This document shows, in pieces, positions 9,015 through 27,218 of a DNA stretch of 38,122 bases. The stretch spans positions 1 to 38,122 of the forward strand of contig LJUI01000022.1 in assembly GCA_001303705.1 (NCBI GenBank), written 5' to 3'. The position numbers were made by a program, and so were the translations under genes. Below the pieces are notes generated by a model, which did no database searches, was not told the DNA's origin, and worked only from the letters and a program-made list of their open reading frames with translations. Positions within the stretch are counted from its first letter, which is position 1, and every line of letters starts with the position of its first letter. This DNA comes from a candidate division TA06 bacterium SM23_40. Its GTDB lineage: Bacteria > LJUI01 > SM1-40.

Positions 9015-10325
9015 CTAGCCCCGTTCCGCTTCAGGCCGTAGATCTATGAGATGTACAGAACAGGAGATGCACGGGTCGTAGGCGCGTACGACCATCTGGA
9101 GTTTTTCCCTCAGAGCATCCACCGGATCCTTTCCCGCTCTTTCCACCGATGCCCGGAGGTCTTTTTCTATATTTGCGCAGTTCTGAGCTGTCGGCGTAAT
9201 CACGTCGGCCTTTGTGAGACGGCCCTTCTTGTTGAAGGTATAACTGTGATAGAGTGTACCTCGTGGGGCCTCAGATGCCGCGGTCCCTGATCCCTCGCGG
9301 ATCTCCGCATGTCGCGGTCTCTCTTTCTTGACTCCCCTGTGAAGGAGCTCGTCGACTACCTCAATCGCCCGCTCTATCGAATAGACGAGTTCGACTGCCT
9401 GAGCTGCGTTGTTGTAGAGGATGTTGTCGGTCTGCTTATGCAAACCGAGTCTCCTGCACGCCGTCTTGGCCTGTCCGGAAAGGAACTTCCCGAACAGCAT
9501 GACCCTGGCAAGCGCGCCGACCATGAACGGCCTCTCCCTGAATCTGCTCTGTTTGGCGTGGGAATAGGCGACAGTCACTTCATTACACAGGTCCTTGTAG
9601 GCATGGACGTCCATCGTCTCTCCTGTCGACAGCACGATCTTGTTGCCGAAGAGGCCGAACTTGTTGGAAGGCGGCTTGAGTGCCGCATAGAGTGTGGGGG
9701 ATTCGGGGAAGGTCGGGACCTCGAGAGCAGCCATGAGGTCGATGGTCGCGAGCGCCTTTCTGATGCCTTTCTCTAGCTCTTCTCTGAGGATGACGAGATC
9801 TCCTTCGGAAGGGACGAGTCCGAACCCGCCAACCACCGCATTCACCGGGTGTATGGCTCTGCCGCCCACCATCTCCTGTATCTTGTTGCCCAGATTTTTC
9901 AGCTCCAGGCCTATCTTCGCCTCGCCGGGACGGTCTGATGCGAGCTCGATGACGCTGCTGTACCCGAGGAAATCGGGGACGGCGAGGCAGAAGAGGTGCA
10001 GAGCATGGCTCTCGATGTTACCTCCCTGGACGAGAAGATCGCGCAGAAGCTTCGTCTGTGGGCTTACCTTGATCCCGAACGCATCCTCGATCGCCATGAG
10101 AGAAGTGACGGCATGCACGGCGGAGCATATGGCGCAGATACGCATGACAATGGGTGTCACTTCATGGTAATGCCTGCCGACGAGCAGTGGTTCGAAGAAG
10201 CGGGTACCTTCTATGATATCCATCTGCACGTTGGCAGGTCTACCGTCTTTCATCTCCACCGTGATCCCGCCATGTCCTTCGATACGACATACGCGACCGA
10301 CAGTAATGGTCTTTGTGCTCATCAT
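9015..10325 (-). CDS. hydA: Group 3b [NiFe] hydrogenase (sulfhydrogenase) large subunit, alpha
   Basis: A 436-residue catalytic subunit that binds the Ni-Fe centre. The N-terminal metal motif is RICAICSAVH (C64, C67, H71) and the C-terminal one is DPCISCSVH (C419, C422, H425). All four metal-binding cysteines are present. Eleven residues follow His425, which may be the tail removed by a maturation endopeptidase. With the other three subunits in the order B-G-D-A it matches the cytoplasmic NAD(P)-linked hydrogenases of Pyrococcus type, which interconvert H2 and NADPH and can reduce sulfur. The start codon overlaps the stop of the delta gene (ATGA). No hyp maturation or protease gene is in the window. 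A short hairpin at 9000-9016 covers the stop codon but lacks a T run. Confidence 0.93.
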   Translation of the reverse strand: MMSTKTITVGRVCRIEGHGGITVEMKDGRPANVQMDIIEGTRFFEPLLVGRHYHEVTPIVMRICAICSAVHAVTSLMAIEDAFGIKVSPQTKLLRDLLVQGGNIESHALHLFCLAVPDFLGYSSVIELASDRPGEAKIGLELKNLGNKIQEMVGGRAIHPVNAVVGGFGLVPSEGDLVILREELEKGIRKALATIDLMAALEVPTFPESPTLYAALKPPSNKFGLFGNKIVLSTGETMDVHAYKDLCNEVTVAYSHAKQSRFRERPFMVGALARVMLFGKFLSGQAKTACRRLGLHKQTDNILYNNAAQAVELVYSIERAIEVVDELLHRGVKKERPRHAEIREGSGTAASEAPRGTLYHSYTFNKKGRLTKADVITPTAQNCANIEKDLRASVERAGKDPVDALREKLQMVVRAYDPCISCSVHLIDLRPEAERG

Positions 10326-11095
10326 CTGCCCCGTTCTGTAGGTGCCACCTGCATGACCTCTGATTGGCCTCCAAATGTCCGCAGTCTGTTCTGGATGTCG
10401 ACGAGGGTGAAACCCTTTTCTCTCAGGAGGTTCACCTCGGAAGCGACGTTAGCCTCCTCGACCGGCCCTCTGCAGCCGATGCACGGCTGGCCATATGCAG
10501 GACACCGGGCATTGCAGCCCGCGACCGTGATCGGCCCGAGGCACAATTCGCCTCGTTCCAGCAGAAGGCAACTGTTCTCTCGCATCTTGCATTCTGTGCA
10601 GACTGCATAGTCGGGGAGCACCGGGAGGTCTCCATGTATGAGAGAGAGCGCCGCCTGCAGAAACTGATCCTTCTCAATCGGACAGCCCGATATTGCATAG
10701 TCGACCCTGACAAAGCTGCTGAGAGGTTGGGATGGGATGATGCCGAAGTCTTTTCCCTTCGGGCCATAGACTTGTCTCTTCAGTTTCTCTCGTTGCTCCT
10801 CGTTCTTCATTGCCTGGACTCCGCCCCACACAGCACAGGTGCCGATCGCGATGAGGAGTCTCGCCCTGCTCCTGATGCGCTCGAGCATCTCCACTTCTTC
10901 CGGCTGTACGACAGAACCTTCGACGAGCGCGATGTCCAGATCGCAGTCTTCGTCATTGTCGGACATCGCCATATGGAAGGACCGGATGTCGAGGGCTCCA
11001 GCCAGGTCGAGCAGTTCGTCTTCACAGTTGAGTATGACCAATTGGTCGCCCGCGCAGCCCGTTAACCCGAAGATACCGACAATTGGCTTGGCCAT
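10322..11095 (-). CDS. hydD: Group 3b [NiFe] hydrogenase small subunit, delta
   Basis: A 257-residue electron-transfer subunit. The proximal [4Fe-4S] cluster cysteines are visible in GLTGCAGDQ (C14), IGTCAVWGG and ISGCPIEKD. A second cysteine-rich part (CTECKMRENSC, then CNARCPAYGQPCIGC) should hold the medial and distal clusters. There is no twin-arginine signal peptide, so the enzyme is cytoplasmic, as expected for group 3. It overlaps hydA by four bases and lies 13 bases after hydG. Confidence 0.92.
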   Translation of the reverse strand: MAKPIVGIFGLTGCAGDQLVILNCEDELLDLAGALDIRSFHMAMSDNDEDCDLDIALVEGSVVQPEEVEMLERIRSRARLLIAIGTCAVWGGVQAMKNEEQREKLKRQVYGPKGKDFGIIPSQPLSSFVRVDYAISGCPIEKDQFLQAALSLIHGDLPVLPDYAVCTECKMRENSCLLLERGELCLGPITVAGCNARCPAYGQPCIGCRGPVEEANVASEVNLLREKGFTLVDIQNRLRTFGGQSEVMQVAPTERGR

Positions 11096-11108: not shown

Positions 11109-11945
11109 TCAGATCAGTTCGGGAAGGTTTATCGCGTCCCAGTAAGTGAATATGGGTCCATCCAGACACGTGTACTTGTACCCGATGGCACAGTGACCGC
11201 ATTTGCCGACACCGCATTTCATTTTCCGTTCTAGTGACATCAGAATCCTGTCCTTGGAGAGGTTTCTCTTCAGCAACTCCTCCAGGACAAACCGATACAT
11301 GACCGGCGGGCCACAGACGGCGGCGTAGGTTGTACTCGGATCTATTTCGATCTGATCGAAGAGCGTCGTCACAACTCCTATGTGGGCAGGCCAGATGCCT
11401 TCTTCATCCTTGTCGACGGTGAGCATGCATCTGAGGTCAGGCCTGTCCAAGAGGCTGAGGAGTTCGTACTTGAAAAGCATTTCGTCCGGGATCTTTGCAC
11501 CGTACATAAGGGTCACGTCCTCGAATCTCTCTCGGTTGTCCAGGGTGTACCAGAGCAAGGACCTGAGAGGAGCCATCCCCAGTCCGCCTGCGACGAGGAG
11601 CAGATTATTCCCCTCGAGCTCCTCAACCGGGAATCCATTCCCATATGGACCCCTGATACCCACGAGATCGTCCCGTTCGAGGTTGTACAGGGCATTCGTC
11701 ACCCGGCCCACCCGCCTGACGCAGAGTTCTACGGTCCCCGGGCGGGTGGGGGAGGAGGAGATAGATATCGGCGCCTCACCCGTACCTATGATGCTCAGTT
11801 CTACGAACTGGCCCGGCCGATATGAGAAATTATCCTTCATCGACTTGTCTACGAAAGTCAGCCCGAACAGCTTATGGTCTTCGATTTGGGGTAGAATGCG
11901 GGTAATCTGGGCGAGATGGGGAAAATAGATGTTTTCTCTATTCAT
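11109..11945 (-). CDS. hydG: Hydrogenase gamma subunit, FAD/NAD(P)-binding
   Basis: A 278-residue flavoprotein of the ferredoxin-NADP reductase type. FAD site: RPGQFVELSI and ISISSSPTRPG. Nucleotide-binding part: LLLVAGGLGMAPLRSLLW, then VCGPPVMYRFVLEELL. A [2Fe-2S] site lies at the end (MKCGVGKCGHCAIGYKYTC). It moves electrons between the Fe-S chain and NAD(P)H. A longer in-frame start at 12056 would overlap hydB heavily; the ATG at 11945, with GGAG eight bases upstream, gives the family N-terminus and an 8-base overlap with hydB. Confidence 0.92.
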   Translation of the reverse strand: MNRENIYFPHLAQITRILPQIEDHKLFGLTFVDKSMKDNFSYRPGQFVELSIIGTGEAPISISSSPTRPGTVELCVRRVGRVTNALYNLERDDLVGIRGPYGNGFPVEELEGNNLLLVAGGLGMAPLRSLLWYTLDNRERFEDVTLMYGAKIPDEMLFKYELLSLLDRPDLRCMLTVDKDEEGIWPAHIGVVTTLFDQIEIDPSTTYAAVCGPPVMYRFVLEELLKRNLSKDRILMSLERKMKCGVGKCGHCAIGYKYTCLDGPIFTYWDAINLPELI

Positions 11946-12972
11946 TGCCTCTGCTCCGTAGTTTGGTGAGGACATCGACCAGGCTGATCGCGGCCGGACA
12001 CGACACAATGCAGCGGCCACAGCCGACACAGCTCGGCCGACCGAACTGGGCCACAAACCCTCGTTGTTTGTGGAAGTATCTGTTCTTGATCCTTGAGCCC
12101 CTGTCGGCGCGGAAGTTGTGACCGCCTGCTACGAGTGCATAGTCTTTGAACAGGCAGGAATCCCATCTTCTCAGTCGGCTCCCGCTCTTGGCGTCCAGAT
12201 TCAGCTGATCGACGACGTCGTAGCAGTAGCACGTAGGGCAGACCATCGAGCATGTGCCGCAACTGAGGCACTTGTCACCCAATTCCTGCCAGATCCTGCT
12301 CTCGTATTCGAGGTCCATGATTTCGGGCAGATCCTCGAGGTGGATTTCAACTTCGAACGAGTTAATCCGCTGAGCCGACCTCCTCTTGTAGGCCCTTCTA
12401 TCGGTGTCGCCGATTTCCTGAAACAGGGTCGATGTTTCGAGAACGATATCATCTCCCAGGCTTGTGCCGACTCGCACAAGATAGGAGCTGCCAATATCGG
12501 ACAGGAACAGGTCAAAGCCGTCTTCAGTGAAGTCAGTTCCGGTTGATCGACAGAAGCAGTATTCGTCTGGCATGCAATCCAGACCGACCACGATCGCATT
12601 GCGTCTTCTCGCGAAGTAGTACTCATCGCGATATTGGCCGCCGAATACCAGATCGAGTATCTTGATCCCATGAATATCGCAGGGGTGAACGCCGAAGAGA
12701 ATGATCTTAGTATGGAGATCTTTGTCGGGTGCGCGATATCCTTCCGCCTCTGAGAACGTGAACATCGTATCCACGGGTTTCGTGAAGTACTTCTTTGGAG
12801 GCAGAATGGTCCTCAGGCAATCGTGCGCAATCTGCTCGGGTGCGTCGACCTTCTGGAATGCGAAGTCGTTGGTATCCCTCCTCACCGGGCCATGCAAGTC
12901 GCCGAACTTCTCGAGACCTGCAAGGAAAGCATTCAGATTCTTCTTCTGCAACTTGACCATCTTCATTGGCAT
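11938..12972 (-). CDS. hydB: Hydrogenase beta subunit, double [4Fe-4S]
   Basis: A 344-residue iron-sulfur subunit related to anaerobic sulfite reductase subunit A. Two cluster-binding motifs lie in the C-terminal third: CLSCGTCSMVCP near residue 235 and CVGCGRCIVSCP near 318. Further cysteines occur in the middle (for example GVHPCDIHG and CMPDEYCFCRS). It links the small subunit to the flavin subunit. ATGs at 12972 and 12966 are both possible; GAGGG spacing favours the second. It starts six bases after the stop of the receiver-kinase gene, so hydrogenase and signalling genes share a transcript. Confidence 0.9.
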   Translation of the reverse strand: MPMKMVKLQKKNLNAFLAGLEKFGDLHGPVRRDTNDFAFQKVDAPEQIAHDCLRTILPPKKYFTKPVDTMFTFSEAEGYRAPDKDLHTKIILFGVHPCDIHGIKILDLVFGGQYRDEYYFARRRNAIVVGLDCMPDEYCFCRSTGTDFTEDGFDLFLSDIGSSYLVRVGTSLGDDIVLETSTLFQEIGDTDRRAYKRRSAQRINSFEVEIHLEDLPEIMDLEYESRIWQELGDKCLSCGTCSMVCPTCYCYDVVDQLNLDAKSGSRLRRWDSCLFKDYALVAGGHNFRADRGSRIKNRYFHKQRGFVAQFGRPSCVGCGRCIVSCPAAISLVDVLTKLRSRGNE

Positions 12973-12978
12973 CTCCCT

Positions 12979-14073
12979 CTATTCTCGCGCCTTTGGCAGG
13001 GAGACTACGAAGGTGCTCCCCTTGTTCAATTCGCTGGATGCTGAAATCGACCCTGAATGAGCCTCGACTATTTTCCTGGCGATCGACAGCCCGAGTCCCG
13101 TTCCTTCTCTCCCATTCGTTCTGACGCGATAGAACTCGTCAAAGATGAACGGGAGGTCTTTTTCTGAGATGCCGATGCCCGTATCGGAGACGTCTATCAG
13201 CACGTTGGAATCGTCCTCTCGTCCAGTTATGGTGATTTTCCCGCCCTCCACGTTGTACTTTATCGCATTGGCGATCAGGTTGATGAAGACCTGGTTCAGG
13301 GTCCTCATGTCACCGCGGATGGTTGTCAGTGGGTCGGGCAAGTTGATGTCAAACGTAACCTTCTTGGCCTCGGCCTCCTCACGCATAAGGTCAACAGTCT
13401 CGGAGATGATGGGGGCCAGGTCGAGATCCTGAAACTTCTCGACGAGCTTACCCTTCTCGATCTGGGCCAGGTTGAGCCAATCACGAGTCAGTGTGAGCAG
13501 GCCCTGAATCCTGATTTTCATGCGCTCCAGTATTTGTCTCTGCTCGGGGGGCACCTCACCTGCTGCGCCTCCCAGAATGACCTCAAAGTATTGGAGGATC
13601 GCGGCGAATGGCGTCCTGAGCTCATGTGAGACCATTGTGATGAAATTCCGCTTCATCAGATCCCTCTCCTCCTGAAGGGCCTGGGTCTCGAGGACGAGCC
13701 TTCTCTTCTCTACTCCCCTCTTGACGATGATTCTGAGCTCGTCGGGCGTGAAGGGTTTGGGGAGGAAATCGTACGCACCTCGCTTCATAGCCTCTACAGC
13801 CGAGGAGACGGTGGCATAGCCTGTTATGACGACTGTCACGATGTTCGGATCGATTTCCGATATCTTCGTGAGCACATCCATCCCACTCATGCCGGGCATC
13901 TTGAGGTCGAGCAGGACGAGATCGGGCTTCAGATGTTCGACTTTCTCGAGTCCGACCGTGCCGTCTTCGGCGACGTCGACCGCATATCCAACCTTAGCCA
14001 GGGCATGGCTGCATGAATCTCTGACGACTTCTTCGTCATCGACAATGAGAACGGAAGGTAGACCTTGCGTCAT
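12979..14073 (-). CDS. Cytosolic receiver-histidine kinase hybrid (REC-HisKA-HATPase)
   Basis: 364 residues without any membrane segment. Residues 1-125 are a receiver with phospho-acceptor D56 in LVLLDLKMPG and Lys in FLPKPF. Residues about 138-205 hold the dimerisation/phosphoacceptor part, H150 in MVSHELRTP. The C-terminal ATPase has the N box in NLIANAIKYN, DTGIGISEKDL and GTGLGLSIARKIV. A receiver before the kinase suggests it is itself controlled by phosphorylation, so it could act as a relay step between an upstream kinase and the stand-alone receivers encoded just before it. Its stop is six bases from hydB. Confidence 0.92.
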   Translation of the reverse strand: MTQGLPSVLIVDDEEVVRDSCSHALAKVGYAVDVAEDGTVGLEKVEHLKPDLVLLDLKMPGMSGMDVLTKISEIDPNIVTVVITGYATVSSAVEAMKRGAYDFLPKPFTPDELRIIVKRGVEKRRLVLETQALQEERDLMKRNFITMVSHELRTPFAAILQYFEVILGGAAGEVPPEQRQILERMKIRIQGLLTLTRDWLNLAQIEKGKLVEKFQDLDLAPIISETVDLMREEAEAKKVTFDINLPDPLTTIRGDMRTLNQVFINLIANAIKYNVEGGKITITGREDDSNVLIDVSDTGIGISEKDLPFIFDEFYRVRTNGREGTGLGLSIARKIVEAHSGSISASSELNKGSTFVVSLPKARE

Positions 14074-14104
14074 CTCAAGCCCCCATATGCTCGAGGCTGG
14101 ATCA

Positions 14105-14494
14105 TTAGCTCGACAGCTCCCGGATTCTCCTCAGAAGCTCTGCGGGCTCGACAGGCTTGTCCAGAAGAGCCTCTGCTTCGAGGTACTCGCCGTCCTTTTC
14201 GGGAGAAAACTTGAGTCCGGTCTTTTCTGTCACCGAGGTGAGCACAATGACCGGAATGTCCTTATACCGATCGTCATTCTTGAGCTCAGTGCAGAGGACG
14301 AATCCGTCGTTCATTCTCTCCATCATCACATCCATGAGAATCAGGTCCGGTCGATGTGCCCGAATCTTCTTCTTCGCCTCATGTGTGGTGTAGCTGGAGT
14401 CCACCTCGTACCCATTGGCTTCTAAGATCTTCCTGGTGGCGGCCACAAAATCTGCGTCATCGTCTACGATGAGTATCCTGGCCTGGTTTTCCAT
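14105..14494 (-). CDS. Single-domain response regulator
   Basis: 129 residues, one receiver domain and no output domain. Acidic pocket ILIVDDDADF, phospho-acceptor D55 in LILMDVMMER, Thr/Ser position in VIVLTSVTE, Lys in LLDKPVEP. An unusually long loop between strands 4 and 5 (after TSVTEKTG) is shared with the second receiver of the neighbouring double-receiver protein, so the two are paralogues. Such proteins act as phosphate shuttles or bind a target protein directly. It sits between the double-receiver and the receiver-kinase genes, with gaps of 28 and 31 bases. Confidence 0.9.
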   Translation of the reverse strand: MENQARILIVDDDADFVAATRKILEANGYEVDSSYTTHEAKKKIRAHRPDLILMDVMMERMNDGFVLCTELKNDDRYKDIPVIVLTSVTEKTGLKFSPEKDGEYLEAEALLDKPVEPAELLRRIRELSS

Positions 14495-14522
14495 GATCCA
14501 CTCCTTCTATCTTCCGAATCTC

Positions 14523-15425
14523 CTATGCCCGGGGCTTGGAGAGCATCTCGTCGATCTTTGCCAGGAGTTCCTGGGCAGGCACCGGCTTCTCCATGAACTC
14601 TTCGACGGGGAAGAAGCGGGGATGCCTCGGTTCCCCGATGAAGCTGAAGCCGGTCTGTTCGGTAATCGACGTGAGCACGAGGATCGGAACCTTGTTCAGT
14701 CGTTCGTCCTTCTTGAACCTCCTCGACAGGATGATGCCGTCCGCGCCCTTCTGCATCATTATGTCGAGGATTATGAGGTCAGGGACACTCGCGTCTAAGG
14801 CCTCCAGGGCCTCGTCTCCGCTCAGTGCCGTCTGTACACGGTACGACGCGTCCTCCAGGATTCTTCGCGTGGCATCCACGAAGTCCGGGTCGTCGTCGAC
14901 GATCAGAATGTTCTTTTCTTTGTTCTTTTCTTTTTGCATTTCGACTGCCTCCTCACGGGATGCGTCCCGTGATGCCGGTGACGGGGTCACCTGAGGACGC
15001 GGTTGAGCTTGTGCATCAGTCCGCGTCTTTCCTTTCTCCGTGTTTGGATCTCGTTGCGGTCTTCTGAACGCGTTCTGCACGGCGGCTCTCAGCTCCTTTC
15101 TGTCAAAGGATTTGATGTAGTAGTAGAAAACGTCCTGTTGCCTGATCTTACTCTCTAACTGCTTTGTATTGACTAAAGCAGTCATGATTATGTGCACGTT
15201 CGGGTCGAGGGTTCTTATGATCGGAATGGCTTCACAGCCTTCCATATCCGGCAGGTCCTGGTCGATGATGATGCAGTCGAACCGTACCTTCCGAATTCGC
15301 TTGATCGCGTCTGAGATGCGGCTGGCCCTCTCTACGTCACAGCCGTCTTGGGACAGGAGCCGAGAGAACTCGTCCTGGGTCCGGAGATCGGGATCTATGA
15401 GGAGGATCGTCTTTGGTTTGAACAT
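14523..15425 (-). CDS. Double-receiver protein (REC-linker-REC)
   Basis: 300 residues. The first receiver spans about 1-120 (D55 in CIIIDQDLPD, T82, Lys in YYYIKSF). A charged, proline/glutamine-rich linker covers about 122-170. The second receiver spans about 171-298 (VDDDPDF, D221 in LIILDIMMQK, FMEKPVP). No output domain is present. It is the first gene after the sigma-54 promoter element at 15485-15500; the ATG at 15425 has AGGGAG ten bases upstream. Probably a phosphorelay or adaptor component acting with the kinase encoded two genes on. Confidence 0.9.
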   Translation of the reverse strand: MFKPKTILLIDPDLRTQDEFSRLLSQDGCDVERASRISDAIKRIRKVRFDCIIIDQDLPDMEGCEAIPIIRTLDPNVHIIMTALVNTKQLESKIRQQDVFYYYIKSFDRKELRAAVQNAFRRPQRDPNTEKGKTRTDAQAQPRPQVTPSPASRDASREEAVEMQKEKNKEKNILIVDDDPDFVDATRRILEDASYRVQTALSGDEALEALDASVPDLIILDIMMQKGADGIILSRRFKKDERLNKVPILVLTSITEQTGFSFIGEPRHPRFFPVEEFMEKPVPAQELLAKIDEMLSKPRA

Positions 15426-15484
15426 TGCGCCAGTCTCCCTGCAGATAGCTGCGAGGCACTCTGCTGCCTCCCGCCGCAGGGTAT

Positions 15485-15500
15485 AGCAAATTCCGCGCCA
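15485..15500 (-). promoter_or_regulatory. Sigma-54 (-24/-12) promoter for the receiver/hydrogenase unit
   Basis: On the minus strand this reads TGGCGCGGAATTTGCT, matching TGGCACG-N4-TTGCW at all but one position and keeping the essential GG-N10-GC. Transcription would start near 15474, about 50 bases before the ATG at 15425. It lies just downstream of the terminator of the sigma-54 activator gene. No matching -35 hexamer is present for the TATACC that overlaps it. The sequence match is direct; activity is inference. Confidence 0.75.
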
Positions 15501-15516
15501 GACTTCCCGTAGAGAC

Positions 15517-15550
15517 GAAAAAAGCCACTCAGGAGAATACCTAAGTGGCT
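15517..15550 (-). terminator. Rho-independent terminator of the kinase/activator unit
   Basis: Read on the minus strand, an 11-bp stem (15550-15540 with 15533-15523, AGCCACTTAGG/CCTGAGTGGCT, one U-G pair) closes a 6-nt loop and is followed directly by TTTTTT. It ends the transcript of the activator gene, so the hydrogenase unit needs its own promoter. Confidence 0.88.
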
Positions 15551-15667
15551 GCTGTATCGAGTGTTATAACCTTGCCGGCAGATGCCCTGCTTTGAACGCG
15601 GGTACCCGACCCAGAAGCAGAGTGGGGCGTTTCTCCCCATCCGGTTGGGAGTTCCGCACCAAACGGA

Positions 15668-17020
15668 TTATGCGGTGATCCCGTACTTCTTCATCTTCTG
15701 CCGCAGGGTCTTCCTGTCTATGTTGAGTGCCTCGGCGGTGCGGCCTTTGTGGCCTTCGAACGCTGTGAGCGTCCTCTCTATGTGTTCTCGTTCCACATCC
15801 GCAAGTGTCTTCTGCTCCGGTGCGCCGTCATCCTCCTGATCTACTCTGAGACCATAGTACAAGAGATCCTTCGGCTCGATCACGTCGCCTTCCGCGAGAA
15901 CGACTGCCCTCTCGATTGCATTTTCGAGTTCTCGTACATTTCCCGGCCATTCGTATCTGGCCAGCCGTTCCATCGCCTCATCAGTGATCCCGAGTATGTT
16001 CTTCTTCCTCTCCCGATTGTACATCTTGAGGAAATAGTCCGCCAAGAGCGGTATATCCTCTTTCCTCTCGCGCAGCGGAGGGAGCTCAATCGGAACTACG
16101 CTCAATCTGTAGAAGAGATCCTCGCGGAAGGATCCCGTTCTAACCGTGCTTGCCAGGTCTCGGTTCGTCGCAGCGATGATTCGAACGTCGACTCTCAGGA
16201 CCTGAGTGCTTCCGACTCTGACGATCTCTCTCTCCTGTATCGCTCTGAGCAACTTCGCCTGGACGCTCAGACTGATGTTCCCTATCTCATCGAAGAATAT
16301 GGTCCCGCCATTCGCCACTTCGAATCTGCCGTATTTCGTCGTCGTGGCGCCGGTAAAGGATCCCTTTGTGTGCCCGAAGAGTTCGCTCTCGAAGAGGCTT
16401 TCGACCAGGGAGCCGCAATCGACGACGACGAACGGCCTGGGGCTTCGGGGGCTATTCCGGTGGAGGGCTCTCGCCACGAGTTCTTTCCCGGTTCCGCTCT
16501 CGCCGTATATCAGTACAGTGCTGTCCGTCGGTCCCACCTTCTTCACTAGCGCATCGATCTCCTCCATCGCCTTGCCCTTCCCGATGAGGACGGCCTCTCC
16601 GATTGTCGACTTCAACTCCTCCGCAAGGTATATGTTGTTGAGTATCAGTCTTCTTCTCTCTAATGCACGTTTCACAATCGCACGGAGGTTGTCCGGTGTG
16701 AATGGCTTGGGTATGAAGTCATAGGCGCCCGATTTCATAGCCTCGACGGCCGACTCTACGGTGGCATAGCCTGTGATGACGAGCACAATCGCACTGGGGT
16801 CGTCGGCCCGTATCGTCTTCAGCACCTCCATTCCATCCAGGCCCGGCATCTTGAGATCGAGGACGACGAGGTCGAACGCCTGCTTCTCCATCATGGCAAG
16901 ACCCACATTTCCGTCTTCTGCGACCTTCACGGCGTAGCCGTCACGGGAGAGAATCTGTTGACAGGAGTCGCGAATGACCTGCTCGTCATCGATAACGAGT
17001 ACATTGGGCGCAATAACCAT
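15668..17020 (-). CDS. NtrC-family sigma-54-dependent response regulator
   Basis: 450 residues in three parts. Receiver 1-120 with D55 in LVVLDLKMPG and Lys in FIPKPF. AAA+ domain about 142-380 with Walker A GESGTGKE (173-180), the sigma-54 contact loop as GSFTGA (220-225, the common GAFTGA with Ala to Ser), and Walker B GGTIFFDEIGN. A Fis-type helix-turn-helix at the end (GRTAEALNIDRKTLRQKMKK). It activates RNA polymerase carrying sigma-54 when phosphorylated. The gene starts directly after the stop codon of the membrane kinase gene, with its ribosome site inside that gene. The likely targets are the element at 15485-15500 and perhaps the one at 25424-25439. Confidence 0.95.
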   Translation of the reverse strand: MVIAPNVLVIDDEQVIRDSCQQILSRDGYAVKVAEDGNVGLAMMEKQAFDLVVLDLKMPGLDGMEVLKTIRADDPSAIVLVITGYATVESAVEAMKSGAYDFIPKPFTPDNLRAIVKRALERRRLILNNIYLAEELKSTIGEAVLIGKGKAMEEIDALVKKVGPTDSTVLIYGESGTGKELVARALHRNSPRSPRPFVVVDCGSLVESLFESELFGHTKGSFTGATTTKYGRFEVANGGTIFFDEIGNISLSVQAKLLRAIQEREIVRVGSTQVLRVDVRIIAATNRDLASTVRTGSFREDLFYRLSVVPIELPPLRERKEDIPLLADYFLKMYNRERKKNILGITDEAMERLARYEWPGNVRELENAIERAVVLAEGDVIEPKDLLYYGLRVDQEDDGAPEQKTLADVEREHIERTLTAFEGHKGRTAEALNIDRKTLRQKMKKYGITA

Positions 17021-18961
17021 CTATATCTCCTCCGGGCGCATTGCTGGTTCTTCTATCGGTAGCCTGATAATGAAGGTGGCCCCTTCCCCTACCTGGCTTC
17101 TCACCTGTATGGTTCCTCCGTGACGCTCGATAACGCCGTAACTTATCGACAGACCGAGGCCCGTGCCACTTCCCACTTCTTTCGTCGTGTAGAACGGTTC
17201 GAACAGCTTCTCTACGACGTCCTCTGGTATGCCGGGCCCTGTATCCGTGATTTCGACTTCAACGTATCGTCCATCTCCGCCCAGCCGTGTCGCCAGGAGC
17301 AGATCGCCTCTTCCTTCCATTGCCTCAGCTGCGTTCAGCATGATGTTTATGAATACCTGTACGAGTTGATTGCCGTCGGCCATGATCTCTGGAAGGGAAG
17401 GTGCAAGTCTTCTGCCGACATTGATATTCTGAAAGAGTGCTTGATCCTCGAGTAGTCCGAGGGCGCTTTCCACGAGGCGGTTCAGGTCCGCGGGTTCTAT
17501 CTTGGGCTCTGTCTGGTGGGCGAAGTCGAGCAGTCCCTTGATAATGTCCTTGCATCGTGTCGCCTCTCCTGCAATCTTCTCCAGATTCGCCCTCTTCGGA
17601 TCGTCCTCTGCCGTATCTTCCAGAAGAAGGTGGCTGTAGACCAGGATGCCGCCCAGGGGGTTGTTGATCTCGTGCGCCACCCCCGCCGCCAGCTGGCCGA
17701 TCGTGGCGAGCCGTTCAGACTCCATGATTCGCCGTTCTGCGTGCTCTTTCAGTTTCTCGTCTCTCTCTTTGAGCGAGGAAGCCATGATGTTGAACGTTTG
17801 GCCGAGTTCCCCGATTTCATCTTCTGAGATTTGTCCGACGCGATGGGAGAAATCCCCCTCTGCCAACCGTTTCGATGCAGCGACCAGAGCTCTGATCGGC
17901 TTGAGTATGCCATTCGCCAGAAGATATGAGACGATGGCGCCAAGGGCCATTCCGAGAAAGGTGATACTCACGAATGCCCACATCGTTCTCTGTTTCATGT
18001 CGGCATACTTCTGCTCCAGCATTCCCACGTACAGCATTCCTATGACCGCTTCATCGACATCTCTCAGGGGCTCGTACGCGGTTATATACCAGTTGTTCAC
18101 GACAAACGCCCTCTCGATCCACGTCTCGCCCCTCTTAAGTACGGTGTCGTACACCTCCTCCGAGACGCGCGTTCCGATCGCGCGAGATCCATCTGCATTT
18201 CTCACATTTGTCGATATTCGAAGATCTCCCTGGAATATGGTGGCAGCTCCCATATCCTGGTCTTCATACGTGACACCCTGGTACACGACATCCTTGACCC
18301 GATCGACTATCTCGAAGTTGCGGTTGAGGAGGGATCCACCATAGACTACGCCAATGAGTACTCCCTCATCGCTCAGCACGGGGACTGCCGATTTCAGCAT
18401 CATGCCGGCTGTCTCCTCAGTCTCCGCTCGCACCCTTGCCCGTGGAGTCTCGATGAACGTGATGTGCGCCTTCTCAGCAAGCTCTTCCCCCTCCTTCTCC
18501 AGTTCCAGCCTGGATACGATCTGGGTCGCCGAAAACGCCCTTCGGTGCTGCAGGACTCTCCTGACGAGTGCATCTTCACTCTGGCTGTCCCCATACACAT
18601 CGGGGTTCTGGGCCCTCGCGACCACACGCCCGCGCTCGTCGGTTATGGCCAGTATGTCCAGGTTCTCCTCTCTCAGCGCGGTCTGCAGCGCGGAGAGAAG
18701 CAGCTCGCGGTCGTTCGCCAGCAGCGCGTGCTGAACGGCAAACGTTCTCATAGCGGTCAGCGTGAGCGCTCTCTCGATATCTCTCAGGCGCTGGTCGTAG
18801 ATTTCCCGCGCCGCATTGAGATCTGTCCTCACTCTTTCCTGGACTTCTCGGACCACATTCGTCGAAATGAAATGGAGGCCCACTGCAGTAGCTATCACAC
18901 CGGGAATGATGACCACCGGGATGAACGCCAGGACGAACTTGAGTTTCAGAGGGATACGCAT
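17021..18961 (-). CDS. Membrane sensor histidine kinase with periplasmic Cache-like domain
   Basis: 646 residues. First membrane helix about 8-31, a large periplasmic sensor about 35-320 (Cache-like, with GVVYGGSLLNRNFEIVDRV and WYITAYEPLRD), second helix about 326-349, HAMP about 350-402, phosphoacceptor H430 in AAGVAHEINNPLGG, and an ATPase with INIMLNAAEAME, DTGPGIPED and GSGTGLGLSIS. This is the NtrB/AtoS-like kinase type paired with sigma-54 activators. Its stop codon abuts the start of the activator gene, so they are a cognate pair. The signal is not known. It is transcribed from the promoter at 19016-19044. Confidence 0.94.
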   Translation of the reverse strand: MRIPLKLKFVLAFIPVVIIPGVIATAVGLHFISTNVVREVQERVRTDLNAAREIYDQRLRDIERALTLTAMRTFAVQHALLANDRELLLSALQTALREENLDILAITDERGRVVARAQNPDVYGDSQSEDALVRRVLQHRRAFSATQIVSRLELEKEGEELAEKAHITFIETPRARVRAETEETAGMMLKSAVPVLSDEGVLIGVVYGGSLLNRNFEIVDRVKDVVYQGVTYEDQDMGAATIFQGDLRISTNVRNADGSRAIGTRVSEEVYDTVLKRGETWIERAFVVNNWYITAYEPLRDVDEAVIGMLYVGMLEQKYADMKQRTMWAFVSITFLGMALGAIVSYLLANGILKPIRALVAASKRLAEGDFSHRVGQISEDEIGELGQTFNIMASSLKERDEKLKEHAERRIMESERLATIGQLAAGVAHEINNPLGGILVYSHLLLEDTAEDDPKRANLEKIAGEATRCKDIIKGLLDFAHQTEPKIEPADLNRLVESALGLLEDQALFQNINVGRRLAPSLPEIMADGNQLVQVFINIMLNAAEAMEGRGDLLLATRLGGDGRYVEVEITDTGPGIPEDVVEKLFEPFYTTKEVGSGTGLGLSISYGVIERHGGTIQVRSQVGEGATFIIRLPIEEPAMRPEEI

Positions 18962-19015: not shown

Positions 19016-19044
19016 ATCATAGCCGACGAGATGGACGAAGTCAA
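19016..19044 (-). promoter_or_regulatory. Sigma-70-type promoter for the kinase/activator pair
   Basis: On the minus strand: TTGACT (19044-19039), 17 bases, TATGAT (19021-19016). It points into the histidine kinase gene, start at 18961. It is back to back with the promoter at 19107-19135; together they account for the 304-base divergent gap 18962-19265, where I see no gene. Confidence 0.8.
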
Positions 19045-25423: not shown

Positions 25424-25439
25424 TGGCACGGCGATTGCT
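25424..25439 (+). promoter_or_regulatory. Sigma-54 (-24/-12) element ahead of the C39-like gene
   Basis: Reads TGGCACGGCGATTGCT, a perfect match to TGGCACG-N4-TTGCW. Transcription would start near 25450, leaving a leader of about 115 bases. A caveat is an overlapping TATAGT (25440-25445) like the -10 of other promoters here, but the -35 position 17 bases upstream reads GCTCAC, which does not match. An inverted repeat TCCCAC/GTGGGA (25340-25345, 25370-25375) upstream could be an activator site. Confidence 0.62.
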
Positions 25440-25565: not shown

Positions 25566-27218
25566 ATGACTGCACAGAAGAACCTCACCACCTCGGGACA
25601 GATCCTGGGGGCAGGATTGCTCGTCGCGCTGCTGGCGCTCTGTTCGCCCGTCGGAGCCCAGCCACTACTGCGCGTCTGCCCGACCCAGTTCGACGTGACG
25701 GTCTCCGAGGAAGACACAGTCGCCGAGATGATGCTCGTCGCCAATGATGGGTACGACGTGCTCACGTTCGACATCACTCCCGATGTCACGTGGGCATGGG
25801 ATGAGCCGTCCTCGGGCACCCTCTATCCCGGCGACAGCACTTTCGTCACGGTCTACTTCAGCTCCGTGGGTCTCACCCCGGGCGAGCACTGGGGGTTCAA
25901 CTTCATCGATCACAACGACCCCTTCCATCCTCACCCGTGGCCGATCCCGAAGCACTTCGTCTTCGTCGTCCGGACCATCACCATGATTACCGGTGTGCCG
26001 GACGAGAATCAGCCTCCCGCGGGTCTCTTCCCGCAGGGGGGCGTCTTCACGAACTTCTGCGCGCCCACTGCTGCAGCCAACATCGTCAGCTTCTGGGACG
26101 AGTACCGCGTCAATCCAGGGGCGATCAAGGTGCTCAACTGCTGGCAGCCGTGCTACGCGATCGGCCGGATCAACGACTGCGCGAAGCGCAAGGAGGCGGC
26201 CGACTACATCGGGTGGTTCATGGATACGAACAACCAGGGCGACCCGGTTCGCATGAACGGCACAGTCTTTCCGGCGGCCATGGGTACATTCAATGGCGAC
26301 GTCGGGCCCGGTCTGACGAACTTCGTCTCCTGGGAGGGGACCTACCCGAACCTCCCGGACACCGCCGGAGTGTGCAAACAGGGGTACAACTGGACCGTCA
26401 CTCCGTTCTACGGTCCGGATCCCGAGCAGGCCTGGGAGTTCTACAAGGCCGAGATCGATTCAGGGCGGCCTCTCCTCACCAGCTTTCTGTACTGGAATCC
26501 GGTTCCTGAGGGGAAGCGGCAGAAGGCGACCGACGCCGCATCGCTCTGGGAAGACGAGTGGGTCGACTACTACACCTGGGGCAATGCGGTCAATGCGTCG
26601 GGCGCTCCTGACCCAGTAGAGCAGTGGAACTGGTACGAAGAAGAGCAGGGGATCGGGCACATGGTGACGGGTGTCGGATATGCAACCGACAATCTCGGAA
26701 ACAGGTGGGCGATCGTACACGACAACTGGCCCACTACACCGCGCAACATCGCCATCCCCTGGGCCAACTGGGCGGCCAACTTCCGCGTGTTGCCCGATGT
26801 GACCCCGAACGTCCACTGCGTCGTCTCGCCGATGCAGCGGTCGGTGCCGAAGGGTGCTACGCTCGATTTCTCGGTCGGGTACCACAACAACACGCAGGCG
26901 GCGCAGAACTTCCGGATCAAGATCATGGCGTACTTGCCCGGGAGCACGAATCCGGCCAAGACGTATGCGACCGGCGGCGGTAATCCCGATCCGACCCTGC
27001 AGGCCGGTACCTCGATGACACGCTACTATGCGCTCGATGTGCCGAACATCCCGCAGGTCCAGCCGGTGAGCGGGTACGTGATCAAGGTGGCAGTCTATCA
27101 GCCTCCACAGGCTCTGAACCCGATCGCCAGTGACTGCTTCTGTTTCTCGGTCACGCAGCCGATGAGCAGCATGCCGCTGAACGGACCCGAGTGGGCAATC
27201 CGGCCGCTCGGCATGTAG
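25566..27218 (+). CDS. Secreted C39-like papain-fold protein
   Basis: 550 residues. Signal peptide about 1-31 (VALLALCSPVGAQ). Residues about 37-135 form an Ig-like strand-rich domain with a choice-of-anchor look (FDVTVSEEDTVAEMMLV, TLYPGDSTFVTVYF). The peptidase-like domain follows, with the Cys in NFCAPTAAANIVSFW (C165), His in GHMVTGVGYATD (H365) and Asp/Asn in AIVHDNWPTT (386-387). That is the Cys-His-Asp order of the C39_2 group. The C-terminal about 130 residues are again strand-rich. The spacing between Cys and His is long, with a large insert rich in Trp and Cys. Target unknown. AAGGGGG lies ahead of the ATG. Confidence 0.85.
   Translation: MTAQKNLTTSGQILGAGLLVALLALCSPVGAQPLLRVCPTQFDVTVSEEDTVAEMMLVANDGYDVLTFDITPDVTWAWDEPSSGTLYPGDSTFVTVYFSSVGLTPGEHWGFNFIDHNDPFHPHPWPIPKHFVFVVRTITMITGVPDENQPPAGLFPQGGVFTNFCAPTAAANIVSFWDEYRVNPGAIKVLNCWQPCYAIGRINDCAKRKEAADYIGWFMDTNNQGDPVRMNGTVFPAAMGTFNGDVGPGLTNFVSWEGTYPNLPDTAGVCKQGYNWTVTPFYGPDPEQAWEFYKAEIDSGRPLLTSFLYWNPVPEGKRQKATDAASLWEDEWVDYYTWGNAVNASGAPDPVEQWNWYEEEQGIGHMVTGVGYATDNLGNRWAIVHDNWPTTPRNIAIPWANWAANFRVLPDVTPNVHCVVSPMQRSVPKGATLDFSVGYHNNTQAAQNFRIKIMAYLPGSTNPAKTYATGGGNPDPTLQAGTSMTRYYALDVPNIPQVQPVSGYVIKVAVYQPPQALNPIASDCFCFSVTQPMSSMPLNGPEWAIRPLGM

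Follow-up and report, generated by a model that had tools for sequence, protein, structure and literature searches.

Hydrogenases of group 3b occur widely among uncultured bacteria, and the switches that control them are mostly unknown. In the window, by which we mean the whole stretch of 38,122 nucleotides analyzed here, the genes for a cytoplasmic enzyme of this type lie next to those for a two-component system. A preliminary description had proposed that the two are coupled by a sigma-54 promoter. The question that the locus raises is whether the hydrogenase genes are indeed controlled in this way and, if so, in response to which signal. It offers a complete circuit for such an analysis, consisting of a sensor, an activator, an enhancer, a promoter and a target, together with a candidate signal.

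The gene content that had been described, an NtrB/NtrC-type pair directly upstream of a seven-gene unit ending in hydB-G-D-A, was borne out by our analysis (Table 1). The activator gene is found directly 3' of the kinase gene, and the unit encodes three phospho-receiver proteins followed by HydBGDA, its genes being separated, in order, by 28, 31 and 6 nt, an overlap, 13 nt and a further overlap. The start of RR2 is preceded by AGGGAG, which resembles a ribosome site. In the activator, the loop sequence is GSFTGA rather than GAFTGA, as it also is in 4 of 13 activators from G720, a genome considered below. RRHK and the activator have receivers that share 65% identity, suggesting a common kinase for the two. 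All of the HydBGDA subunits were identified, with scores below the NCBIfam equivalog cut-offs, and on the electron-carrier side an NAD-binding domain alone was detected. The best solved-structure match of HydA was sulfhydrogenase I of Pyrococcus furiosus, a group 3b enzyme; thus, the group 3b kinship proposed earlier is, as judged by similarity, well founded. A second group 3b-like hydrogenase, with a HydA that is 40% identical, is encoded on another contig of the same genome (L092/L133, contig C79).

Table 1. Features of the hydrogenase locus, in window coordinates.
Feature	Position	Strand	Remarks
Sigma-70-like site ahead of kinase gene	19016..19044	-	10/12; consensus match only; candidate promoter of regulators
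Membrane histidine kinase	17021..18961	-	Double-Cache sensor with sCache_3_3 module, HAMP, HisKA, HATPase
NtrC-type sigma-54 activator	15668..17020	-	Receiver, AAA+ with GSFTGA loop, Fis-type HTH
Possible second, degenerate enhancer copy TGGTGCGGAACTCCCAA	15645..15661	-	4 mismatches
Predicted enhancer (UAS) TGGGGAGAAACGCCCCA	15639..15623	-	Palindrome kept in G720 at similar spacing
Intrinsic terminator 3' of activator gene	15550..15523	-	-20.1 kcal/mol, z -6
Sigma-54 promoter element TGGCGCGGAATTTGCT	15500..15485	-	-24 GG, -12 GC (predicted)
RR2, double receiver protein	14523..15425	-	First gene of unit
RR1, single receiver protein	14105..14494	-	
RRHK, receiver-histidine kinase	12979..14073	-	
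hydB, 4Fe-4S subunit	11938..12972	-	
hydG, FAD/NAD(P)-binding subunit	11109..11948	-	
hydD, small subunit	10322..11095	-	
hydA, [NiFe] large subunit	9015..10325	-	Group 3b type

The gap of 242 nt between the activator stop and the first gene of the unit contains a terminator, as strong as had been claimed, and then the putative promoter element, TGGCGCGGAATTTGCT. This GG-N10-GC element is real. It shows 0 mismatches to the pattern TGGCN7TTGCW, agrees with the consensus TGGCACGN4TTGCW at 11 of the 12 fixed positions, and is separated by 59 nt from the first gene (gene start 15425). Its score was reached by 12 of 5000 dinucleotide shuffles of the gap, in which a search for a sigma-70-like promoter found none. 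The bare sigma-54 pattern was not enriched genome-wide, with 54 matches as compared to 46 for the reversed control, so that the sequence of TGGCGCGGAATTTGCT alone is weak and its weight rests on position. We found rpoN, without which the original proposal would have failed, in the genome. Furthermore, of the 17 activator genes in this genome, 9 are followed, no more than 600 nt past their stop, by a sense-strand site scoring 11-12/12, and the same zones contained 0 antisense sites (0.03 expected). Among these activators is that of a locus with a PilS/PilR-like pair, a prepilin-peptidase-like gene and sigma-54 sites before two pilin-like genes (L127, contig C63). A PilS/PilR-type pair beside pilin genes is a classical sigma-54 setting.

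Conservation of the element in relatives, which the preliminary description had named as a test, was found in part. A kinase-based, domain-wide survey of 386 genomes yielded G720; the genomes compared included none from the organism's own phylum. G720 contains rpoN, and its gene order is HK-EBP-RR2-RRHK-RR1-hydB-G-D-A followed by a hydrogenase maturation protease, with identities to the window of 53% (kinase), 57% (activator), 62% (hydB), 75% (hydG), 69% (hydD) and 60% (hydA). The two activators are reciprocal best matches, the next matches being at 48-50%. The gap after the G720 activator is 777 nt long, and its best sigma-54-like site, TGGCACAGATCTTGTT, lies just ahead of RR2. This near-consensus site scores 10/12, has GT instead of GC at -12, and was equalled in 161 of 2000 shuffles, and is thus not significant alone. 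Both sigma-54-like sites after activators in G720 (L194 and L172) read TTGT and not TTGC at -12, which may reflect a preference of the lineage.

The enhancer comparison was more informative. The predicted enhancer of the window, TGGGGAGAAACGCCCCA, has a counterpart in G720, TGTGGAGAAACTCCACA (L172, 4513-4497). Both are palindromic, 14 of their 17 bases are identical, and the differences include a compensatory pair, G..C to T..A. The distance to the -24 element is 139 bp in the window and 136 bp in G720, within the range of about 100-200 bp upstream in which an enhancer for an NtrC-type activator is expected. Shuffled pairs matched as well at equal spacing in 2 of 1000 cases; when spacing was ignored, 93 of 1000 did so, which is not rare, and a 14/17 match was also reached in one other tested G720 region. 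The shared palindrome appears to be a stronger sign of conservation than the -24/-12 element of G720, and we regard the recurrence of the arrangement in that genome as the strongest new evidence for the predicted sigma-54 control. An imperfect dyad, TCCGTTTGGTGCGGAACTCCCAACCGGA (15667-15640), was considered as the main enhancer and rejected, being no better than shuffles. A zero-mismatch copy of the enhancer at C175:15146 was likewise rejected as a second target of the activator, as it had no good -24/-12 site nearby.

The sensor of the kinase was of the Cache type, as had been suggested: it was assigned by Pfam to sCache_3_3 / Cache_3-Cache_2, and its AlphaFold model is a double Cache domain (pLDDT 91). 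The membrane-proximal module and its long helix aligned with formate-bound 8py0 (Z 16.4, rmsd 2.1 Å, 149 of 155 residues), and the proximal module also matched formate-bound 8py1. R248, T251 and T264 of the kinase, which were invariant in 12 of 12 kinases compared, have the same spacing as R142, T145 and T158 of PacF and align to the same residues in 8py0 and 8py1. These PacF residues are reported to affect formate binding, which reportedly takes place in the distal module of that protein (PMC12501870), unlike the triad of the window kinase, which is located in the proximal module. A gut sCache_3_3 domain with these Arg/Thr residues has been assigned formate as well (PMC12415202). In another genome region (L181), a related kinase/activator pair adjoins formate dehydrogenase N and a hydrogenase-2-like enzyme. 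Formate is thus the most likely ligand of the sensor, a plausible prediction from the modelled fold and the conserved residues.

The kinase also occurs in cassettes without the activator, and several unrelated genomes have Cache kinases of its family associated with gene clusters for hydrogenases, heterodisulfide-reductase-like proteins or formate dehydrogenase. The closest relative of the unit, in a metagenome-assembled genome labelled Actinomycetota (L022, genome G041), has the kinase (57%), RR1, RRHK (57%) and hydB-G-D-A (61-75%) in one run. No activator, sigma-54 site or rpoN was found in this genome, which may be incomplete, and in this respect conservation did not hold. Because the kinase, receivers and hydrogenase are present there without sigma-54, the kinase and receivers appear to travel with the hydrogenase independently of it. 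Since this relative has neither the activator nor rpoN, sigma-54 is, on this comparison, an optional layer over a wider signalling cassette. Directly after the first hydrogenase set of L022, on the opposite strand, is a second, divergent set that includes a maturation-protease-like gene (12352-16319). In the window genome itself, contig C27, taken whole, carries a paralogous cassette without activator (L124), comprising a small-subunit-like protein, a Cache kinase (50% identical to that of the window), a receiver-kinase, a receiver and an HdrC-like protein. Another activator-less cassette is near a Vhu-type hydrogenase (L175, genome G609). On contig C64 of the window genome (L132), an HdrA2-like protein of 1081 aa is encoded, and VhuD- and VhuG-like proteins flank a receiver protein that belongs to the same family.

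Based on these observations, the following circuit is likely. The kinase would use its membrane-proximal Cache module to sense a small carboxylate in the periplasm, formate being the most likely one, and would phosphorylate the NtrC-type activator on its receiver. The activator would then bind the palindromic enhancer, loop across ~140 bp to sigma-54 RNA polymerase at the predicted element and open the promoter. The seven genes, three for phospho-receiver proteins and four for the subunits of the group 3b [NiFe] hydrogenase, would be expressed as a single transcript, from which the terminator would keep the regulator transcript separate. The sibling receiver in RRHK is probably another phosphorylation target of the kinase, so that the enzyme or additional receivers may be adjusted through a second branch that does not involve transcription. 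The step at its center, that the activator switches on the hydrogenase operon through the sigma-54 promoter, is very probable.

Other explanations bear on different parts of this circuit. That TGGCGCGGAATTTGCT is a chance match, the unit being transcribed by read-through or from an unrecognized promoter, would fit the frequency of the bare pattern, no higher than that of the reversed control; this is highly improbable given the position and score of the element, the enhancer spacing and the genome-wide pattern of sites after activators, and read-through is further opposed by the terminator. It is also possible for the sigma-54 promoter to be real and to serve mainly the receiver proteins, with the hydrogenase genes having an internal promoter and sigma-54 only tuning their expression. 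The unit is long and contains a weak sigma-70-like site (14797-14770), but the tight spacing of the genes argues against this arrangement, and sigma-70-like sites are as numerous as expected from shuffles; we consider it improbable.

With a promoter driving the whole operon as the preferred reading, the signal and the mode of control have to be weighed. A serious competitor to formate, with a chance somewhat below even, is that the same architecture responds to citrate, another small carboxylate or the redox state through the distal module, which aligns equally well to the citrate-binding CitA (rmsd 1.5-2.0). Consistent with this, no formate dehydrogenase (alpha match) was found in the window genome, which is 90% complete. 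However, the invariant Arg/Thr/Thr residues and the near full-length match to formate-bound domains both lie in the proximal module. It is rather unlikely, while deserving consideration, that the cassette acts mainly by protein phosphorylation, with the hydrogenase controlled post-translationally and the activator being a lineage-specific addition. In its favor, L022, L124 and L175 all keep the kinase, RRHK and a receiver beside cytoplasmic redox enzymes in the absence of the activator. On the other hand, the topology of the kinase tree does not separate gain of the activator from its loss, and an activator accompanies many members of the kinase family.

The circuit favored here, from a formate-type sensor kinase to a sigma-54-dependent hydrogenase operon, resembles several known systems in part. 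It shares with FhlA and formate hydrogenlyase of Escherichia coli a sigma-54 activator, a hydrogenase operon and a formate-linked input, which is predicted in the present case. In E. coli, formate is bound by FhlA directly, inside the cytoplasm, and the enzyme under its control is a membrane hydrogenase of group 4; the window instead encodes a kinase whose sensor is periplasmic, and its enzyme belongs to group 3b. Similarly, HoxA and HupR combine an NtrC-type activator with a sigma-54 promoter for an [NiFe] hydrogenase. Their targets are uptake enzymes of group 1/2, and their kinase receives its signal from a hydrogen-sensing hydrogenase, whereas the window has a Cache sensor and a group 3b enzyme. 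HupR goes with a group 2 hydrogenase (PMC2621215, PMC12194929), and according to the literature the sigma-54 regulator of Acidithiobacillus ferrooxidans also belongs to a group 2 enzyme. Sulfhydrogenase I of P. furiosus has the same HydBGDA subunits but is archaeal, without sigma-54. PacF and the sCache_3_3 formate receptors 8py0 and 8py1 share the sensor fold and the Arg/Thr/Thr motif; they are chemotaxis receptors, while the protein in the window is a kinase and has an additional Cache module in distal position. In the sigma-54 regulons of Clostridiales, activator genes commonly adjoin the operons that they control, as in the window, although the accessible text of that study mentions no group 3b hydrogenase (PMC6615313). 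No sigma-54-controlled group 3b hydrogenase was found in a literature search that took in few subscription papers, in agreement with the preliminary description. Thus, sigma-54 activators beside their targets are known, the combination with a group 3b hydrogenase appears to be new, and the formate link is plausible. Tentatively, and with some doubt, we suggest a broader view, in which a periplasmic formate-sensing two-component system would drive an NAD(P)-linked group 3b hydrogenase via sigma-54, following an FhlA-like logic with different proteins, and in which its kinase would be shared with a cassette of receivers, found beside cytoplasmic redox enzymes, that has no DNA-binding output.

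Elsewhere in the window, with no activator gene near it, a perfect 12/12 sigma-54 site, TGGCACGGCGATTGCT (25424-25439, + strand), was observed 126 nt ahead of a gene (25566-27218) for an exported-looking protein of 550 aa.
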